Shown one piece after another: positions 9,680 through 16,634 of a stretch of 64,000 bases of DNA (its first letter is position 1; the number at the start of each line of letters is the position of its first letter). The notes under the pieces were generated by a model. The model had not been told where the DNA came from. It ran no database searches and worked only from the letters and a program-made list of their open reading frames with translations. This stretch comes from Quadrisphaera setariae (lineage in GTDB: Bacteria; Actinomycetota; Actinomycetes; Actinomycetales; Quadrisphaeraceae). The stretch spans positions 124,001 to 188,000 of the forward strand of contig NZ_VKAC01000004.1 in the NCBI RefSeq assembly GCF_008041935.1, written 5' to 3'. Made by a program: the position numbers and the translations under genes.

Positions 9680-11068
9680 TCAGGCGGCGCTGATCCGGGG
9701 GGCGCTGGGGGCGGTGGCGCGCACGGCCTCGAGGCGGGCGGTCAGGGACGCGGAGTCCTCACCGGGGGCGGGCACCGCCACCACCTGGTCGAGGGCGCCG
9801 AGCGGTGCGGCGCGCACGAGGCCGGGCCGGCCCAGCGCCCCCGGGGCGACGACGGCGACGGTCCGCTCGGCCCGCGCCACCGCCGCGGCCACGAGCGCCG
9901 CAGCTGCGGAGGTGGGTGCCCAGGCGCCGCGGGCGTCCAGACCCGTGGGCGTCAGGACGGCGACGTCGAGGTGCAGGTCCTCCAGCGCCGCCAGCGCCGA
10001 GGGGCCGACCAGGTCGGTGCCGGCGGGCTCGGCCTCCCCGCCGAGCACCACCAGGCGCACGCCGGGGGCTCCGGCCAGGACGGTGGCCGGGGCGAGGGCG
10101 GTGACCGCCACGGTCAGGGGCGTCGCGGGGGAGCGGGAGGCGAGTCTGGCGACGTGGTGGGCCAGGGCCAGGCAGCCGGTGCCGCCGGTCAGCAGGACCG
10201 CGGCCCCGGGGGTGAGGTCGCTCAGGGCTGCGTGGGCGGCGCGGGCCCACGGGTCCTCCAGAGCCGCCGACGGTGCCGCCTGCGCTGACGGCGCCGGGGT
10301 GGGGGGAGCGGCGTGGCCGCCGGGGTGGTCGGCGGGCGGGAGGTCCCACCCGGGGGGCGCCTCGGGCTCGCGCGGCGCGGACCGGGGTTCCCCGGAGGAG
10401 GCGTGCGCTGCGGTGGGGTAGCCGGTGACCGTGGCCTCGGTGGGGCGCTCCTGGGCGCTCGGGTCACCGGCGCCCTGGTCTCCAGGGGTGCCGGTGGAGC
10501 CGCTGTGCGGGCCAGGGGATGTCGACGGGAAGCCCGTGGGCAACGCTCCTGCCCACGACGCGATAACGGAACCGAGCGACGACGGTGCCCTGGACAGGTC
10601 GAAGCCGGGGGAGGGGAGGCCCTCGAGGTCGGAGGTCGGCTCTCCCGCCCCGGGGACGTCGCCCCGGCCGCCGCCCCGGGGGTCAGGACGAGTAGCGGTG
10701 GGGCCATCGACGCGGAGACCACCTCGAGGGTCAGTCACCGCGGCCCCGCCCTCCCAGGCGGTGGATCCTGCTGCGCCGACGGTCGAGGCGACAGCTCCTG
10801 GCGCAACACCAGGGCCAGTGCCGGCTGGGCGGGTCAGCGGAGGCGTCGCGCGGCCGGGCTGCGCGGGGGAGCTGGAGGAGGGGGGTGCGCTGGTCAGGCT
10901 GACCGCGCCGCCCCTCACACGGCGCAGGCGACCGGCTGCGGTCAGGGCGTCGAGGTCGCGCCTGATGGTCATCTCTGACACGCCGAACCGCGACGCCAGG
11001 TCGCCCAGCCCGACCCGTCCGTCGGCGTCGACCCACCGTGCGATCTCATCCCACCGCTCACCACTCAC
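9680..11068 (-). CDS. DeoR-family regulator with a ~210-aa low-complexity insert
   Basis: About 462 aa against a usual ~250. An N-terminal winged helix (ERWDEIARWV ... VSEMTIRRDLDAL ... RRVRGGA, about residues 4-60) is typical DeoR. The C-terminal ligand-sensing domain starts near residue 275 (LLTGGTGCLALAHHV, VVLGGEAEPAGTDLVG) and is of the DeoR sugar-phosphate-sensor type. Between them lies a Pro/Ser/Gly/Thr-rich stretch with no visible fold. The insert DNA carries one copy of the terminus motif (10562-10573). The GTG at 11068 is chosen as the first start that keeps the HTH intact and excludes a charged, unrelated extension. The upstream region is full of TGTGA repeats that could be its operators. 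Confidence 0.8.
   Translation of the reverse strand: MSGERWDEIARWVDADGRVGLGDLASRFGVSEMTIRRDLDALTAAGRLRRVRGGAVSLTSAPPSSSSPAQPGRATPPLTRPAGTGPGVAPGAVASTVGAAGSTAWEGGAAVTDPRGGLRVDGPTATRPDPRGGGRGDVPGAGEPTSDLEGLPSPGFDLSRAPSSLGSVIASWAGALPTGFPSTSPGPHSGSTGTPGDQGAGDPSAQERPTEATVTGYPTAAHASSGEPRSAPREPEAPPGWDLPPADHPGGHAAPPTPAPSAQAAPSAALEDPWARAAHAALSDLTPGAAVLLTGGTGCLALAHHVARLASRSPATPLTVAVTALAPATVLAGAPGVRLVVLGGEAEPAGTDLVGPSALAALEDLHLDVAVLTPTGLDARGAWAPTSAAAALVAAAVARAERTVAVVAPGALGRPGLVRAAPLGALDQVVAVPAPGEDSASLTARLEAVRATAPSAPRISAA
10562..10573 (+). repeat. Terminus motif copy a (GATAACGGAACC)
   Basis: Exact core GATAACGGAACC inside the low-complexity insert of the deoR-like gene. It is the outermost left copy of five; its flanks (GC before, GAG after) differ from the other copies. 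Confidence 0.6.
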
Positions 11069-11093
11069 ATCGCACAGCCAACCAGACCGCTCA

Positions 11094-11215
11094 TGTGAGG
11101 TACAGGCCCGCGTCCCGATTGTGAGGTTGAGCGGCTGTGACGTGTCGCGCGTGAGAGAAGTTGCTGGATGTGAGATGACACCTTGTGATGGTTGATTCGT
11201 GACAGTGTGATGTGA
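11094..11215 (+). repeat. Cluster of TGTGAGG/TGTGA repeats
   Basis: TGTGAGG at 11094 and 11120 and TGTGAGA at 11169, with TGTGAC at 11136 and 11211 and TGTGAT at 11184 and 11206, all on the plus strand. One reversed copy (CTCACA) is at 11064-11069. They lie between deoR and the AEC gene and could be DeoR operators. They are the reverse complement of the CTCACA array at 14282-14458 beyond dif. Confidence 0.5.
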
Positions 11216-11229
11216 CCTGTTCGGATGGG

Positions 11230-12078
11230 TCACGGCGTGAGGATGGCGGCGATGAGTGCGATCACCGGAACGGACAGCGCTGTCGTCGCGAAGATGGCGT
11301 CGCGGGCGATGATGACGCCCCGGTCGTAGCGGGTGGCGTGGACGGAGATGTTCTGAGCTGTCGGCAGGGCCGCCAGCACGGTGACCGCCAGCAGCGACGC
11401 GCCGACCGCGAGCTCACCCGCCCCGGCGCCGGGGCGGGGTCCGAGGCGCAAGGAGATGCCGTAGGCGATGAGCATCGCCGGAACGGCCATGCCGGCGACC
11501 AGCTGGAGCGGGTCGGCGACCAGGGCGGGGATGCGAAGACCGGTCAGCGACAGGGCGAGCCCGACCAGGGAGCCCACCGTCAGGGGCGTGCTCAGCGGGC
11601 GCCGCAGCACTCTGCGCAGCGGCGGGCGGCGGTCGGCGACGCCCACGTCGAGCGCGACCAGGGCCAGGGGCTGCAGCAGGAGCAGCTGCAGCAGCCACGT
11701 CGGAGCCACCAGTGCGGCATCCCCCAGGACGTAGGCGGCGATCGGCAGGCCGAGGTTGCCGGCGTTGACGTAGGCCGCCGAGAGGGCGCCGACGGTCGTG
11801 CGGGCCAGGTCGTGGCGGAAGGCCAGTCGGGACGCCGTGACGTACAGGCCCGCAGCCACCGCGAAGGCCGCAGCGCTGGCGACGAGGTTGGCCGAGAGCA
11901 CCTGGTGGACGTCGGCCCCCGCGAGGGTCACCACCATGAGCGCGGGGGAGGCCACGTAGAAGGCCAGGCGCGAGAGCACCTTCTGGGCGTCCAGGTCCAG
12001 CACGCGCAGCTGGGCGAGCAGCGCCCCCAGGGCGATGAGGGCGATGATCGTCACGAACCCCGCCAGCACCCCAGCCAC
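11230..12078 (-). CDS. AEC family (auxin efflux carrier-type) transporter
   Basis: About 282 aa, roughly ten hydrophobic segments in two five-helix halves, the layout of the AEC family of small organic-acid and auxin-like carriers. Recognisable stretches are SRLAFYVASPALMVVTL, SAAYVNAGNLGLPIAAYVLGD and MAVPAMLIAYGISL, where the Asn-Ala-Gly-Asn-Leu-Gly motif is typical. The start is placed at the GTG at 12078, with CACGAT 6 nt upstream suggesting a leaderless start; a GTG at 12069 is an alternative. It is followed by deoR on the same strand after 161 bp of TGTGA repeats. Terminus motif copy b lies about 55 bp upstream of the start. The transported substrate is unknown. Confidence 0.82.
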   Translation of the reverse strand: MAGVLAGFVTIIALIALGALLAQLRVLDLDAQKVLSRLAFYVASPALMVVTLAGADVHQVLSANLVASAAAFAVAAGLYVTASRLAFRHDLARTTVGALSAAYVNAGNLGLPIAAYVLGDAALVAPTWLLQLLLLQPLALVALDVGVADRRPPLRRVLRRPLSTPLTVGSLVGLALSLTGLRIPALVADPLQLVAGMAVPAMLIAYGISLRLGPRPGAGAGELAVGASLLAVTVLAALPTAQNISVHATRYDRGVIIARDAIFATTALSVPVIALIAAILTP

Positions 12079-12130
12079 ACCACGATCGTGGCGCACCCGA
12101 GGGCGTCTGATGGTGAGTGGTGGCTTGTGT

Positions 12131-12148
12131 CTGATAACAGAACCATGC
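12131..12148 (+). repeat. Terminus motif copy b (CTGATAACAGAACCATGC)
   Basis: Second left copy. Its 15-nt core CTGATAACAGAACCA is identical to copy e (minus strand, 16620-16634), and its AACCATGC end is shared with copy c. Confidence 0.75.
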
Positions 12149-12680
12149 ACGAAGGAGGCTGCCGTTCTGGGGGAGTCACCCCCGAAGACCTCGATGCGCG
12201 ACGCGGCGTCACCTCGGCGGGCCGCGGGCTGCGGGCTGCGGCTCGAGCCCGCCCGGACGCCATCCCCGCCCCGGGCCGGGGCTCTCAGACCGCCACCTGG
12301 AGCCGGATCCTGGGTCGACGGGGACGAGGCCATCGCGCACGGGCCGGCCGAGGCAGGTCGCCCGACCACTCGCGCTCGACCTGCCTCGACCGTCCCGCTA
12401 AGCGCACCAGGCGAGGCCGGAGCCGATGAGCCGCGGCCGCGGGTCGCAGCGCCACAGGTGCCGGGGGAGCCAGCGGCGCCAAGGGGGTCGACTGGTCCGG
12501 AGCCGTGACCAGCGCTGGCTGACGCGGCGACCAGCAGTGACCACCACGTCGGGGGCGACGAGATCCGCCCCTGTCAGCCACCTCGCCACCTGGTCCTGGC
12601 GAGCTCGACGGCAACGGCGCCCCACCTTCTCCAGGCGCCTCCACGACCTCGACGAGACCTGCTCCCCTGCACGTTCCTAA

Positions 12681-12708
12681 TGCGCCGATAATCAACGTTA
12701 TGTCAGAC
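12681..12708 (+). other. dif: dif chromosome-dimer resolution site
   Basis: The site has the 11-6-11 layout of XerC/XerD sites. The left arm is TGCGCCGATAA (12681-12691), the centre TCAACG, and the right arm TTATGTCAGAC (12698-12708). The inner CCGATAAT...AC.TTATGTCA matches the actinobacterial dif consensus as I know it, with differences mainly at the outer ends. XerCD recombine sister chromosomes here, with FtsK pumping, at the replication terminus. It lies in an intergenic region locally poorer in GC, and xerD is present at 57-58 kb. Confidence 0.88.
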
Positions 12709-12763
12709 AATCCGGAGAAGGTGCAGGTCGACGCTCCCCTGGGCACTCCTTCGGCGCTCCCGC

Positions 12764-13126
12764 TCAGCGTCGCGGCTTGAGGTCCTCCAGGCACGTCACC
12801 GACACGCTCAGGTCCCCGCGCCAGGCGACACCGTTCTCCTCCAGCAGCGCCATCGTCCGCACGAGGGCTTCGGTGGCGGCGTCCTCGTCGGCCTCGACCG
12901 CCGAGGACGCCGGGATGACCAGGAGGTGGCGCACGGTGAAGCGGGTCAGGGTCAGGCCGTAGGTCCAGCAGCCGTCCTCGGTGAAGGCCGAGGAGAACAC
13001 GTCGTGGGCGCCCTGGTCCGCCAGCAGCCGCGCGCGCAGCTCACCCTCGGGACGTGCGAACTGGCCGATGACCTCAGTCCGGTACGTGCGAGTCGCCGTT
13101 GCGGGCCGGGCTGGCTGTTCCGTCAC
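12764..13126 (-). CDS. Small conserved protein, DUF6204-like
   Basis: About 120 aa. Residues such as RTYRTEVIGQFARP, ARLLADQGAHDVFSSAFTEDG and LTYGL/LTLTRF resemble the small actinobacterial DUF6204 proteins (my recollection of the pattern; not searched). No catalytic motif is visible. The frame stays open to 13450, but the extra ~100 residues are Pro/Gly/Ser-rich with much weaker third-position GC, so I place the start at the GTG at 13126; an ATG at 13414 is the alternative. The gene lies just right of dif, divergent from the recombinase-like gene. Confidence 0.6.
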   Translation of the reverse strand: MTEQPARPATATRTYRTEVIGQFARPEGELRARLLADQGAHDVFSSAFTEDGCWTYGLTLTRFTVRHLLVIPASSAVEADEDAATEALVRTMALLEENGVAWRGDLSVSVTCLEDLKPRR

Positions 13127-13434
13127 GGCAGGTGAGTCTGCTCCAGCAGCTCGCCGCGGCGCGAGCCGTTTCCCCGAGGTCGGTGCGGGCGGACGGCCTG
13201 GGCTCGTCCCTCGTCGTCTCCAGTGCGCTAGCTGTACTGCCCAGGCTCCCCCAGGGCTTCTCGGCCCTGCGTCCCACGACTCGGCCGCTGGGCCGTCCAG
13301 CCACTCGGGTGCGCCGTCACCGCTTCCGCTGCTGTCGTCAGCATCCGCGCCTGCTTCCGGGCGGTCGCTGGTTACCCGTTCCGGCCCCCTCGGGATCGCC
13401 CCCGCGCCCGTCATCGTCACGCCGACCCAGCATT

Positions 13435-13452
13435 TTGATAACGGAACCATGC
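13435..13452 (+). repeat. Terminus motif copy c (TTGATAACGGAACCATGC)
   Basis: Third plus-strand copy, right of dif. Its 15-nt core TTGATAACGGAACCA is identical to copy d on the opposite strand 118 bp away. The orientation of the array switches between c and d. Confidence 0.75.
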
Positions 13453-13569
13453 CGCGACCACCACCCCACCCCGAACCGACCCGTCAGTACGTCCAGGCCA
13501 GACCAGGCCCGAACGGTGTTCGCGAGGACCCGGGGTTCCCTGGGGGTGCCCCGGGATGGAGGGGTGAGC

Positions 13570-13597
13570 TTGGTTCCGTTATCAAGTGCCATAGGAT
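13570..13597 (+). promoter_or_regulatory. Promoter of the recombinase-like gene, overlapped by motif d
   Basis: TTGGTT (13570-13575) and TAGGAT (13592-13597) with a 16-nt spacer form a housekeeping-type promoter whose start point falls at the GTG at 13605. Motif copy d covers most of the -35 box and the front of the spacer, so a protein bound there should block transcription. Confidence 0.6.
13571..13585 (-). repeat. Terminus motif copy d (TTGATAACGGAACCA)
   Basis: First minus-strand copy, identical over 15 nt to copy c. Its downstream AAG is shared with copy e. It lies 19 bp before the GTG start of the recombinase-like gene, within its promoter. Confidence 0.75.
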
Positions 13598-13604
13598 GGC
13601 AGTC

Positions 13605-14924
13605 GTGACGCAGGACGACGACGCCACCCGTGCCACCAGCTCCGCTCAGGTGGGCCCCCCGGCAGCCCCTGCAGCAGCGGCCACCGATGCCCCCACCGCG
13701 CGCCCCACGGCCCTGAGCCGCCTCGTCGAGGACTACCTGGCCACCCTCGGGTCCACCAGCCCCTCCACCCAGCGCCAGCGCACCTGGGCCCTGCGCGAGC
13801 TGCTCGCCTGGGTGGAGCCCTCAGGCGCCTCCTCCCCCACCACCGCCCTGGCCCCCCAGCCCGTGCGCGCCTGGCTGGACACCGCCGCCACCGCTGACCC
13901 ACCCGCATCCCTGCCAGGACTGCGCGCCCGCGCCGGTGCCGTGCGCGCCCTGACCCAGCACGCCGAGACCACCGGAGCCGTCCCCGTGGGCACCGCGGCC
14001 GCGCTGGCCGGCGTCCTGCGCATGCCCGCCCCGCCCCTGGCCCCCGGCCCCGACCCCGACCCGGTGCGCCGCCTGCTCATCAAGGCCCACCCCGACGCCC
14101 GCCCACTGGCCGTGCACCCGGCGGTGTGGACCCGCTTCTGCGCCCACGTCCACCTCCTCGCGCTCACCGGCGAGCGCGAGGACGTCATGGCCACCCTGCG
14201 CCTGGCCGACGTCACCACCAGCGCCGCCCCGAGCAGCACCCCGGCCGACACGACGGACAGCACGACAGACAGCCGTGGCACCTCACACTCCCGCTCGGCG
14301 AACACCTCACAGGACGGGGGCGACCTCACAGGTGTGCGAAAGGATGGGTTTCTCGCAGATGCTCACACCTCGCCGCATCCACCTCACATCGACCCGGTGA
14401 GCGGTTCTCACATCGACGGGGATGCGGTGACTCCCCCACTGTTCACCGAGAACTCACACGACGGCTCTCGCCCCGACTCGCGGGAAGGTCTTCCCCCAGA
14501 GGGTGAGGAGTCCGACGCCGCGCTGGCCCCTGCCGCGGTGGACGCCGGTGCGGGCTGGGAGCGCCCCGAGGGGTGGGCGGGTACCGCGGTCGCCACGCAC
14601 GTGCGGATCGAGACCGGGCTCGCCCCGCGGGCCTGGAAGCTGCCCGAGCCGGCACGCACGGCCCTGTCGGGGTGGCTGGCCGACCGCACGGTGCTGGCCT
14701 CCCTGCTGCGCGGGTCGGACCCGGGGGCGCTGTGGCTGAGGGTGCGCCCCTCCACCGACCTGCGCACCGGAGCGCTGCGTCCAGCGGGGCTGCCGCTGTC
14801 GGACCGGGGGCTGCGGCTGGCGTTCACCACCACCCTGGCGGTGCTGGCCCTGGAGGACCGGGACCTGGAGGACCTCTCCACGGCGGCGGTGCGGGCCTAC
14901 GCTCGGGGGCGTGGACCGGTGTGA
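13605..14924 (+). CDS. Tyrosine-recombinase-like protein, catalytic residues not recognisable
   Basis: About 439 aa. The N-terminal part (SRLVEDYLATLGSTSPSTQRQRTWALRELLAWV) looks like the SAM-like core-binding domain of integrases. LHLLALTGEREDVMATLRLADV matches the first catalytic-domain block, and PRAWKLPEPARTALSGWLADR the region after the catalytic Lys. The usual HxLRH box, GH motif and Tyr are missing: the end reads DLEDLSTAAVRAYARGRGPV. A low-complexity linker of roughly 110 residues sits in the middle. The GTG at 13605 is chosen because the ATG at 13596 lies inside the -10 box. The gene is 0.9 kb from dif, and terminus motif d overlaps its promoter. A DNA-binding rather than cutting role is inferred. 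Confidence 0.65.
   Translation: MTQDDDATRATSSAQVGPPAAPAAAATDAPTARPTALSRLVEDYLATLGSTSPSTQRQRTWALRELLAWVEPSGASSPTTALAPQPVRAWLDTAATADPPASLPGLRARAGAVRALTQHAETTGAVPVGTAAALAGVLRMPAPPLAPGPDPDPVRRLLIKAHPDARPLAVHPAVWTRFCAHVHLLALTGEREDVMATLRLADVTTSAAPSSTPADTTDSTTDSRGTSHSRSANTSQDGGDLTGVRKDGFLADAHTSPHPPHIDPVSGSHIDGDAVTPPLFTENSHDGSRPDSREGLPPEGEESDAALAPAAVDAGAGWERPEGWAGTAVATHVRIETGLAPRAWKLPEPARTALSGWLADRTVLASLLRGSDPGALWLRVRPSTDLRTGALRPAGLPLSDRGLRLAFTTTLAVLALEDRDLEDLSTAAVRAYARGRGPV
14282..14458 (-). repeat. Array of seven CTCACA direct repeats
   Basis: CTCACA starts at 14282, 14306, 14325, 14362, 14383, 14407 and 14453, all in the same direction, four of them as CCTCACA. Most steps are 19-24 nt or near double that. 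They lie within the linker-coding part of the recombinase-like gene. On the minus strand they read TGTGAG(G), the same element as the 11.1-kb cluster but facing it. Confidence 0.6.
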
Positions 14925-14927
14925 GTC

Positions 14928-16508
14928 GTGAGCGACGCGACGCGTGAGGGCTCCGGGGGGCACCTGCCCACCAGCGCTGCCTCGAGCCTCCCGTCGGCCG
15001 TCCACCCAGAGCACCACCCGGATCTTCCGGGTCTCCCAGGTCCGACCCAGGCGGCGCACCCGCGGCACCCAGCAGGTCGGCCGAGCGTTGCGGCCGTGAG
15101 CCTCGTGGACGGCAGCCCGGTAGACCTCGGCCAGGGCGGCCACCCCGATCGACCGGGCCGTCCTGGCACGCCTGGTCTCTCAGGCCTCCCGGACCTCTCA
15201 GGCCCGGGAGGTCGAGGGGGCTCCAGCGGCCGGGCGCAGCAGGTTCAGCACGGGCCGGCGCAGACCCGCGGGCCTGGTGGGGACCCAGCACCTGAGGGGG
15301 CGCCGTCAGCCACGGTGCTCGACGTCGTCGTCCCGGTCTACAACGAGCAGGACGACCTGCCGGGCTGCGTGCGGGCCCTGCACGCCCACCTGCTCGCCCA
15401 CCTGCCGTACTCCTTCTGCATCACGGTGGTGGACAACGCCAGCACCGACGCCACGCTGGCCACCGCCACCGACCTGGCGGGCGAGCTGGACCGCCCCGGC
15501 GCAGGGGTCTCGGTGGTGCACCTGGACCGCAAGGGCCGCGGCGGCGCGCTGCGCGCGGCGTGGTCGGGCTCGGCCGCGCAGGTGGTGGCCTACATGGACG
15601 TGGACCTGTCCACCGACCTCGCCGCGCTGCTGCCGCTGGTGGCACCGCTGGTCTCGGGACACTCCGACCTGGCCATCGGCACCCGGCTGCACCGGGCCTC
15701 CCGGGTGGTGCGCGGCCCCAAGCGCGAAGCGGTCTCGCGCTGCTACAACGTGCTGCTGCGCTCCACCCTGCGGGTGCGCTTCTCGGACGCCCAGTGCGGC
15801 TTCAAGGCGATGCGCAAGGACGTCGCCGACGCGCTGCTGCCGCTGGTGGTCGACGACGGCTGGTTCTTCGACACCGAGCTGCTGGTGCTGGCCGAGCGCG
15901 CGGGCCTGCGCATCCACGAGGTCCCGGTGGACTGGGTGGACGACCCCGACTCCCGCGTGGACATCCTCGCCACCGCCGCCGCCGACCTGCGCGGCCTGGC
16001 CCGCCTGGGCGCCTCCCTGGCCCGGCGCGAGCTGCCGCTGGCCGACGTGCACGCCGCCCTGGTGACGCGCCCCTCCCCCACCACCCCCACCGGGCTGCTG
16101 TCCCAGGTGCTGCGGTTCGCCGTCGTCGGGGTGGCCTGCACCCTCGCCTACGCGCTGCTGTACCTGCTGCTGCGGCCGGCGCTGGGCCCGCAGGGTGCCA
16201 ACCTCGCCTCGCTGCTGCTGACCGCGGTGGCCAACACCGCCGCCAACCGCGCCTTCACCTTCGGGGTGCGCGGACGCGCCCACGTCGGACGCCACCAGGC
16301 GCAGGGCCTGGTCGTGTTCGGCATCTGCTGGGCGCTGACCTCGGGGTCCCTGGTGCTGCTGGACGCCGTCGCCCCGGGCGCCTCCCACGTGGTGGAGGTC
16401 GTCGCCCTGACCGCCGCCAACCTCGCCGGCACCGTGCTGCGCTTCCTGCTGCTGCGGGTGTGGGTCTTCCGGCGCCAGCGGGTGCCCAGCGCGGACTGGA
16501 ACGGCTGA
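14928..16508 (+). CDS. GT2 glycosyltransferase fused to a GtrA-like membrane domain
   Basis: 526 aa from the GTG at 14928, 3 nt after the recombinase-like stop. The catalytic domain starts near residue 130 (LDVVVPVYNEQDDLPGCV) with VVDNASTDAT, the metal motif YMDVDLSTDL, the DAQCGFKAMRKD block and WFFDTELLVLAERAGLRIHEVPVDW. This is the DPG/polyprenyl-phosphate sugar transferase branch. After about residue 385 come four hydrophobic segments of the GtrA type (LRFAVVGVACTLAY, NTAANRAFTFG), often linked with flipping or anchoring of lipid-linked sugars. The first ~125 residues are Pro/Gly/Ser-rich with weaker codon bias. A GTG at 15315 is the alternative start. Confidence 0.82.
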   Translation: MSDATREGSGGHLPTSAASSLPSAVHPEHHPDLPGLPGPTQAAHPRHPAGRPSVAAVSLVDGSPVDLGQGGHPDRPGRPGTPGLSGLPDLSGPGGRGGSSGRAQQVQHGPAQTRGPGGDPAPEGAPSATVLDVVVPVYNEQDDLPGCVRALHAHLLAHLPYSFCITVVDNASTDATLATATDLAGELDRPGAGVSVVHLDRKGRGGALRAAWSGSAAQVVAYMDVDLSTDLAALLPLVAPLVSGHSDLAIGTRLHRASRVVRGPKREAVSRCYNVLLRSTLRVRFSDAQCGFKAMRKDVADALLPLVVDDGWFFDTELLVLAERAGLRIHEVPVDWVDDPDSRVDILATAAADLRGLARLGASLARRELPLADVHAALVTRPSPTTPTGLLSQVLRFAVVGVACTLAYALLYLLLRPALGPQGANLASLLLTAVANTAANRAFTFGVRGRAHVGRHQAQGLVVFGICWALTSGSLVLLDAVAPGASHVVEVVALTAANLAGTVLRFLLLRVWVFRRQRVPSADWNG

Positions 16509-16560
16509 ACCCTCCCCTTCCTCCACGCCCGGACGCTTCCCGCCTCCTCGGGCGGCTCCT

Positions 16561-16601
16561 CTCGCCGTCGGGGCCGGCCGGCGGCCGGCCCCGACGGCGA
16601 G
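16561..16601. terminator. Strong bidirectional hairpin
   Basis: CTCGCCGTCGGGGCCGGCC (16561-16579) and its exact complement (16583-16601) form a 19-bp stem with a GGC loop. It separates the convergent glycosyltransferase and pyruvyl-transferase genes. Confidence 0.8.
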
Positions 16602-16619
16602 GTGCAAGATCACCACACT

Positions 16620-16634
16620 TGGTTCTGTTATCAG
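16620..16634 (-). repeat. Terminus motif copy e (CTGATAACAGAACCA)
   Basis: Outermost right copy, on the minus strand, identical over 15 nt to copy b. It lies between convergent genes just beyond the terminator, where a promoter role is unlikely. Confidence 0.75.

Follow-up and report, generated by a model that had tools for sequence, protein, structure and literature searches.

Do the oriented repeats beside dif in Quadrisphaera setariae stop replication forks, and, if so, which protein would act on them? Two fork traps, Tus and RTP, are described in the available portion of Galli et al. 2019 (PMC6549158) as unrelated to each other and limited to four clades; in both, according to the same text, polar ter sites point at dif and stop forks that move away from it. 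The accessible text of two reviews, from 2023 and 2026, treats traps as confined to a small bacterial group and as convergent (PMC10331603, PMC13220808), and that of PMC10331603 states for both systems that the promoter of the protein gene contains a ter site. For Bacillus subtilis, the accessible text of PMC13220808 gives a distance of about 0.1 kb between terI and terII, locates rtp and dif in that terminus region too, and describes RTP as binding in the form of dimers to ter sites that are 32-bp imperfect inverted repeats. The window (the whole 64-kb stretch of DNA analysed here) shows dif-facing sites, a site in a presumed promoter and a close pair of sites, as the known traps do, and we therefore propose that it probably holds a fork trap. 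No such system appears in the titles or opening lines of abstracts among the literature matches listed, a set that leaves subscription papers and preprints mostly outside.

Polar sites beside dif

The initial annotation had reported five oriented copies of a non-palindromic motif, and a pattern search of both strands of the window with the core GATAACRGAACC confirmed exactly five (Table 1). The plus-strand coordinates given there were right, while the two minus-strand ones were off by one base; the 15-mers said to be shared by b and e and by c and d are as claimed. With up to two mismatches allowed, six matches were found against 0.82 expected, a number reached in 0 of 100 shuffles. The initial annotation saw no other copy in the window, and the same holds for the whole assembly (4,914,603 bases in 33 contigs, ~4.9 Mb), where GATAACRGAACC has no exact copy beyond these five and six more at one mismatch (one on the same contig, five on others); the core read backwards, as a control, has no match at up to one mismatch. 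The exact copies are not spread over the chromosome, all five lying within 6.1 kb at dif (p ~1e-11 for five random positions within one 6.07-kb span), nor are they limited to promoters, as the surroundings of sites a and e attest. The full site is ~17 bp long and non-palindromic, TGATAACRGAACCAAGC, with conserved positions also outside the searched cores (in the f1 sites, T before and A.GC after).

Table 1. Features around dif (window coordinates)
Feature	Extent	Core	Strand	Sequence	Remark
Polar site a	10561..10577	10562-10573	+	core GATAACGGAACC	inside a DeoR-type coding sequence
Polar site b	12132..12148	12133-12144	+	TGATAACAGAACCATGC
dif core	12687-12705		+	GATAATCAACGTTATGTCA	unique in the genome with up to 1 mismatch allowed
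DUF6204 gene	12764..13126		-		between dif and c; start codon uncertain
Polar site c	13436..13452	13437-13448	+		left member of the innermost convergent pair
Polar site d	13568..13584	13572-13583	-		right member of the innermost convergent pair
Xer/tyrosine-recombinase-like gene without catalytic Tyr	13605..14924		+		start GTG 13605 or ATG 13596
Polar site e	16617..16633	16621-16632	-		flanked by the 3' ends of two convergent genes

The order along the window is a+, b+, dif, c+, d-, e-, with a single orientation flip that had been put at about 0.8 kb from dif and was measured at 818 bp. The earlier picture of sites facing each other around dif held in part: the set is convergent with one flip, but dif itself lies outside the innermost pair, between b and c. 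Measured against dif, G000 (the Q. setariae genome) and four other members of the genus, G001-G004, thus each have one exact site, c or the equivalent of c, on the wrong side, and this placement of dif in Quadrisphaera counts against the fork-trap reading. The core starts of c and d are 135 bp apart, leaving an interval of ~120 bp; both lie between divergent genes, and the 17-bp extent of d stops 11 bp short of the upstream ATG candidate of the next gene.

Gene orientation and base composition along the contig were compared with this arrangement. By a rough count, 67% of the genes left of the pair are on the plus strand, against 26-30% in three 20-kb bins to its right, from 140 to 200 kb; beyond these the orientation is mixed, and the right part of the contig as a whole, at 49% plus, is even. 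GC skew, which the initial annotation had proposed as a check, does change sign near the pair (at ~137-140 kb of the contig), but in a sense opposite to that of the usual G-rich leading strand. Strand bias and skew together suggest that the pair sits at a replichore boundary; the reversed sense of the skew and the even gene orientation of the right part count against the fork-trap reading.

Conservation in Quadrisphaera and its family

The exact motif is present in all six genomes of the genus (24 copies in all) and in 7 of the 13 genomes of the family. The same single flip recurs in four of the five other genus members (G001-G004), the fifth, G005, having a single exact copy, on a contig that could not be positioned. 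All 22 exact copies on the flip-bearing contigs of G000-G004 fit one flip, a count that excludes the exact sites on contig C153 of G002 and contig C185 of G005. Twelve one-mismatch copies were found in the scanned stretches; ten are on flip-bearing contigs (G008, of another genus, included) and 10/10 fit; the remaining two share a contig whose position could not be assigned. The one-mismatch copies of G000 on C8, C10, C21 (twice) and C22 were kept out of the polarity counts. G008 has two exact copies on the plus strand and, after them, three on the minus strand with one mismatch each. Conservation next to dif in relatives, which the initial annotation had named as a check, was found in four other genus members and, once one-mismatch copies are counted, in a second genus. 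The DUF6204 gene is a conserved neighbour in G001-G004 and has no tblastn match in the stretches of G008. A looser motif, TGATAACRGMAYC, was not counted: it occurs in 34 of 198 genomes of the order, mostly as one or two scattered copies outside the genus. Separately, G009 (another genus of the family) has two dif-like cores in opposite orientation, at C1:179298 and 181476 (L118, L125); they are separated by 2.2 kb, and each departs from the pattern at one base.

A recombinase-like protein encoded beside the pair

The start of the recombinase-like gene adjoins the c/d pair in G000-G004 and in G008, and its frame is complete in G000, G001, G003, G004 and G008 and split by a contig break in G002. 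Across these six genomes, the window's included, the relatives are 53-80% identical to the window protein, and the neighbouring genes are common to them. Named relatives are those of Q. granulorum, Quadrisphaera sp. INWT6 and a record called Streptomyces sp. NP160; this last record (L079, NZ_VDMJ01000069.1) groups with Quadrisphaera and is probably misnamed.

The window protein has no Pfam or NCBIfam match at E up to 1, and its kinship was approached through homologs, including those from two further families of the order, labelled f8 and f15. Two f8 homologs match Phage_integrase weakly, at 8e-5 and 6e-4, below the curated cut-off, and a profile of 19 homologs finds XerA (3e-7) and XerD (3e-5) among solved structures. 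The structure model of an f15 homolog (pLDDT 86) has Cre, Xer (XerA, XerH) and other tyrosine recombinases as its best 50 PDB matches, with a best E of ~1e-5 and low whole-chain TM-scores of 0.26-0.47. The fold predicted from this model is the two-domain recombinase fold, an assignment that comes from a distant homolog, the window protein's own model being poor (pLDDT 52) and unused. The f8 homologs lack the N-terminal domain. In an alignment of 19 homologs read by eye, with box II and tyrosine motifs as generally known, the catalytic tyrosine and the box II histidine (His-x-x-Arg) are absent, while an ordinary XerC-like protein, L228, shows both; 17 of the 19 end within ~35 residues of the box II position, the other two carrying unrelated-looking tails, and the box I arginine is kept in 16 rows. 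By profile, model and alignment, the protein is a relative of the Xer-type tyrosine recombinases that has lost its tyrosine, and it would be the binder of the polar sites.

The same layout in other families

A profile search of 119 genomes of the order found distant homologs in f15 and f8, and in 11 genomes of these two families (f8, n=6; f15, n=5) the homolog lies 2-51 kb from dif: 2-14 kb in the five f15 genomes, 18 kb in one f8 genome (G120) and ~47-51 kb in the other f8 genomes (G019, G037, G053, G081 and G185). A match in G016 (E 0.008, in a 75-aa frame) was taken as chance. Motifs were drawn from the region upstream of the homologs and then searched for. The f8 motif, AWAGTGTGCCAAGC, occurs in 6 of 196 genomes of the order, with 4-5 copies each and 26 in all, and, in these six genomes, 24/24 of those that lie on a dif contig face dif (sites on G037 C6 and G185 C11 excluded); apart from the copies that flank the gene, they are tens to hundreds of kb away. 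The f15 motif, ATAACAGGC, is more frequent, its 9-mer having 18-30 copies in five f15 genomes. On the dif contigs of four drafts 33/33 copies face dif, with the other contigs of these drafts and all of G026 left out of the count, and in G138 30/30 do so on a contig of 8,065,021 bases with dif at 6,420,965, the side of distant sites being reckoned from dif and the opposite point on an assumed circle. G026 has no dif match in its genome, so its homolog has no position relative to dif. As a control, three one-base variants of the 9-mer have together nine copies in G138, 4/9 of them facing dif, so that the number and polarity of the f15 sites look unlike a by-product of strand composition.

In a third family, f45, the motif upstream of the homolog in G480, AATAACAGGCCC, has one more copy in 100 kb, and the two face each other from either side of a dif-like core that has one mismatch; a 9-mer within this motif has three copies in the G480 genome. 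Polar sites around dif, with motif sequences of their own, recur together with a homolog of the gene in two further families. The motifs of the clades differ a good deal from one another, which counts against the fork-trap reading. The f15 sites reach 1.8 Mb on one side of dif and 3.8 Mb on the other, more than a compact trap needs, which would also allow a role in signalling segregation or orientation.

Homologs and site pairs on Streptomyces plasmids

Tblastn also found homologs on plasmids: a first type, hypothetical proteins, in 33 Streptomyces plasmid records (L293, L294 and L249, for example) and a second type in 56 records of Streptomyces and Kitasatospora. For the first (G322) type, all 10 records examined of the 33 have a convergent pair of GATAACAGCAAGAAG upstream of the gene or at its start, two of them (L293 and L294, the plasmids of G322 and G366) having supplied the motif. 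The pair is exact in eight and has one mismatch in two (L295, L298; 15-mer), the spacing is 151-162 bp, the order is that of c, d and the gene in the window, and a control search with GATAACAGCAAGAAG read backwards was empty. From the same perspective as for the chromosome, a homolog together with such a pair would be a candidate plasmid replication terminator. Two results count against the fork-trap reading. Three of the ten records are labelled linear and seven circular, and it is difficult to see what convergent sites would do on a replicon that really is linear. Moreover, the second (G464) type shows, with a related pattern, one upstream copy and no convergent pair in three records (pZL1, S. 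xanthii and NBC_01601). The plasmid pFP1 gave only weak two-mismatch matches to other patterns.

A proposed fork trap

The reading we favour, at a probability of about 0.75, is a fork trap of a kind with no relation to Tus/Ter or RTP/Ter, its polar sites being bound by a dead Xer-like protein. The observed sites are rare in the genome, polar, clustered at dif, conserved and linked to the gene; they lie on both sides of the terminus and all face it, and one occupies the presumed promoter region of the protein gene (d in the window, and the sites upstream of the homologs elsewhere). The idea of a fork trap, put forward in the initial annotation as a candidate, survived the comparisons for even spread, for promoter-only placement and for conservation in relatives, and we infer it strongly from the architecture of the locus. 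The protein would be an Xer-type descendant that has lost its nucleophile and kept DNA binding only, acting as a one-sided clamp on the ~17-bp non-palindromic site. Sites left of the terminus face right and those right of it left, and bound sites would block forks that leave the terminus. A rightward fork would thus get past a, b and c and halt at d, and one moving left would get past e and d and halt at c; the two would meet in or beside the c-d interval, next to dif. That the protein binds these sites, that bound sites stop forks, and which of their sides blocks (taken as the one that leaves the way to the terminus open) are inferred. Because d sits just upstream of the gene start, the protein probably also represses its own gene.

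An alternative that we rate as unlikely gives the polar terminus sites another function: forks would not be stopped, and the dead Xer-like protein would show chromosome segregation, or dimer resolution by FtsK/XerCD, the way to dif. The kinship of the protein with XerC/D, the pointing of the sites to dif and the extension of the f15 sites over megabases would all suit such a marker. Five exact copies in G000, and 4-5 in the f8 genomes, seem too few to guide a translocase, however, the tight convergent pair of Quadrisphaera and the plasmids suits a stop better than a pointer, and the flip in Quadrisphaera is at the pair, not at dif.

It is very improbable that the sites are operators of one transcription regulator, encoded beside c and d or elsewhere. 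Sites c and d do lie between divergent genes, and the region upstream of the homolog supplied the motifs of the other clades; but a falls within a coding sequence, e has a 3' gene end on either side, the f8 sites other than those beside the gene are tens to hundreds of kb away, and there is no reason for the operators of a regulon to face dif in 24/24, 33/33 and 30/30 cases. We therefore reject this reading on the sites outside promoters and the polarity about dif, while noting that autorepression through d is compatible with a fork trap. Hardly credible, and likewise rejected, is an old mobile element inserted at dif that left its end repeats and a decayed integrase: the protein is recombinase-like and has relatives on plasmids, but the frame and the sites are conserved across families, the frame is kept at the identities given above in six genomes that share the neighbouring genes, and the sites of the other families extend to either side of dif over distances from many kb to Mb. 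A MatP-like terminus organiser, suggested at first, is rejected, since the sites are not palindromic and there is no MatP family match.

Comparison with known systems

Like Tus/Ter, as the available portions of the sources describe it (PMC10331603, PMC6549158), the proposed trap has few, non-palindromic sites that point to dif, a site in the presumed promoter and relatives on plasmids. It differs in the predicted tyrosine-recombinase fold and in belonging to Actinomycetota, not to gamma-proteobacteria. The Ter sequence differs from that of the polar sites, and the window protein and five homologs have no match to the Tus family (PF05472) in Pfam at E up to 1. The closeness of terI and terII and their position with rtp and dif, as far as the accessible text describes them, resemble c/d, the gene and dif here, whereas the RTP sites are inverted-repeat half-sites and ours a ~17-bp non-palindromic site. 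The consensus is not palindromic over 26 f1, 31 f15 and 26 f8 sites, and two imperfect inverted half-sites are seen in none of the f1, f15 and f8 consensus sequences; nor, at E up to 1 in Pfam, do the same six proteins match the RTP family (PF02334).

With XerC/XerD, XerA, XerH and Cre the protein shares the predicted fold, the profile similarity and, mostly, the box I arginine, but it lacks the tyrosine nucleophile and the box II histidine, and its putative targets are single non-palindromic sites. The restriction of the sites to the terminus region in the window's genome recalls MatP/matS; matS is palindromic, and the six proteins have no match to the MatP family at E up to 1 in Pfam. KOPS, the FtsK-orienting sequence, is a frequent short polar motif found over the whole chromosome, unlike the five exact copies of G000 and the 4-5 of f8; the 18-30 copies of f15 come nearer and are still few.

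On balance we also favour the broader proposal of a third, independently evolved trap, in which dead Xer recombinases serve as one-way fork barriers in several actinobacterial families and on Streptomyces plasmids, one fold resolving dimers at dif and penning forks beside it. If true, a third non-homologous trap in another phylum would mean that penning of forks at the terminus has been selected for repeatedly, and site numbers from 4-5 per genome to ~30 over megabases would offer a comparison set for the purpose of such traps. The recombinase-like hypothetical proteins of Streptomyces plasmids would, in the same event, have a role.

Further homologs

Class-wide profile searches scored few candidates per genome (5, up to 18), and absence there is uninformative; matches near 1e-6 to 1e-12 were not counted as homologs, as such searches pick up ordinary XerC/D. 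For G545, no second motif copy and no dif at up to two mismatches were found within 140 kb. G464 has two convergent motif copies plus a third, and further homologs are present in G282, G203 and G450, the last with one site in 20 kb. The G450 homolog (C1:472060), in a genome of the Streptomyces family, is a near relative of the f8 type and is preceded by an f8-like site; it lies at 0.47 Mb of a 5.95-Mb contig and may have been acquired by transfer.
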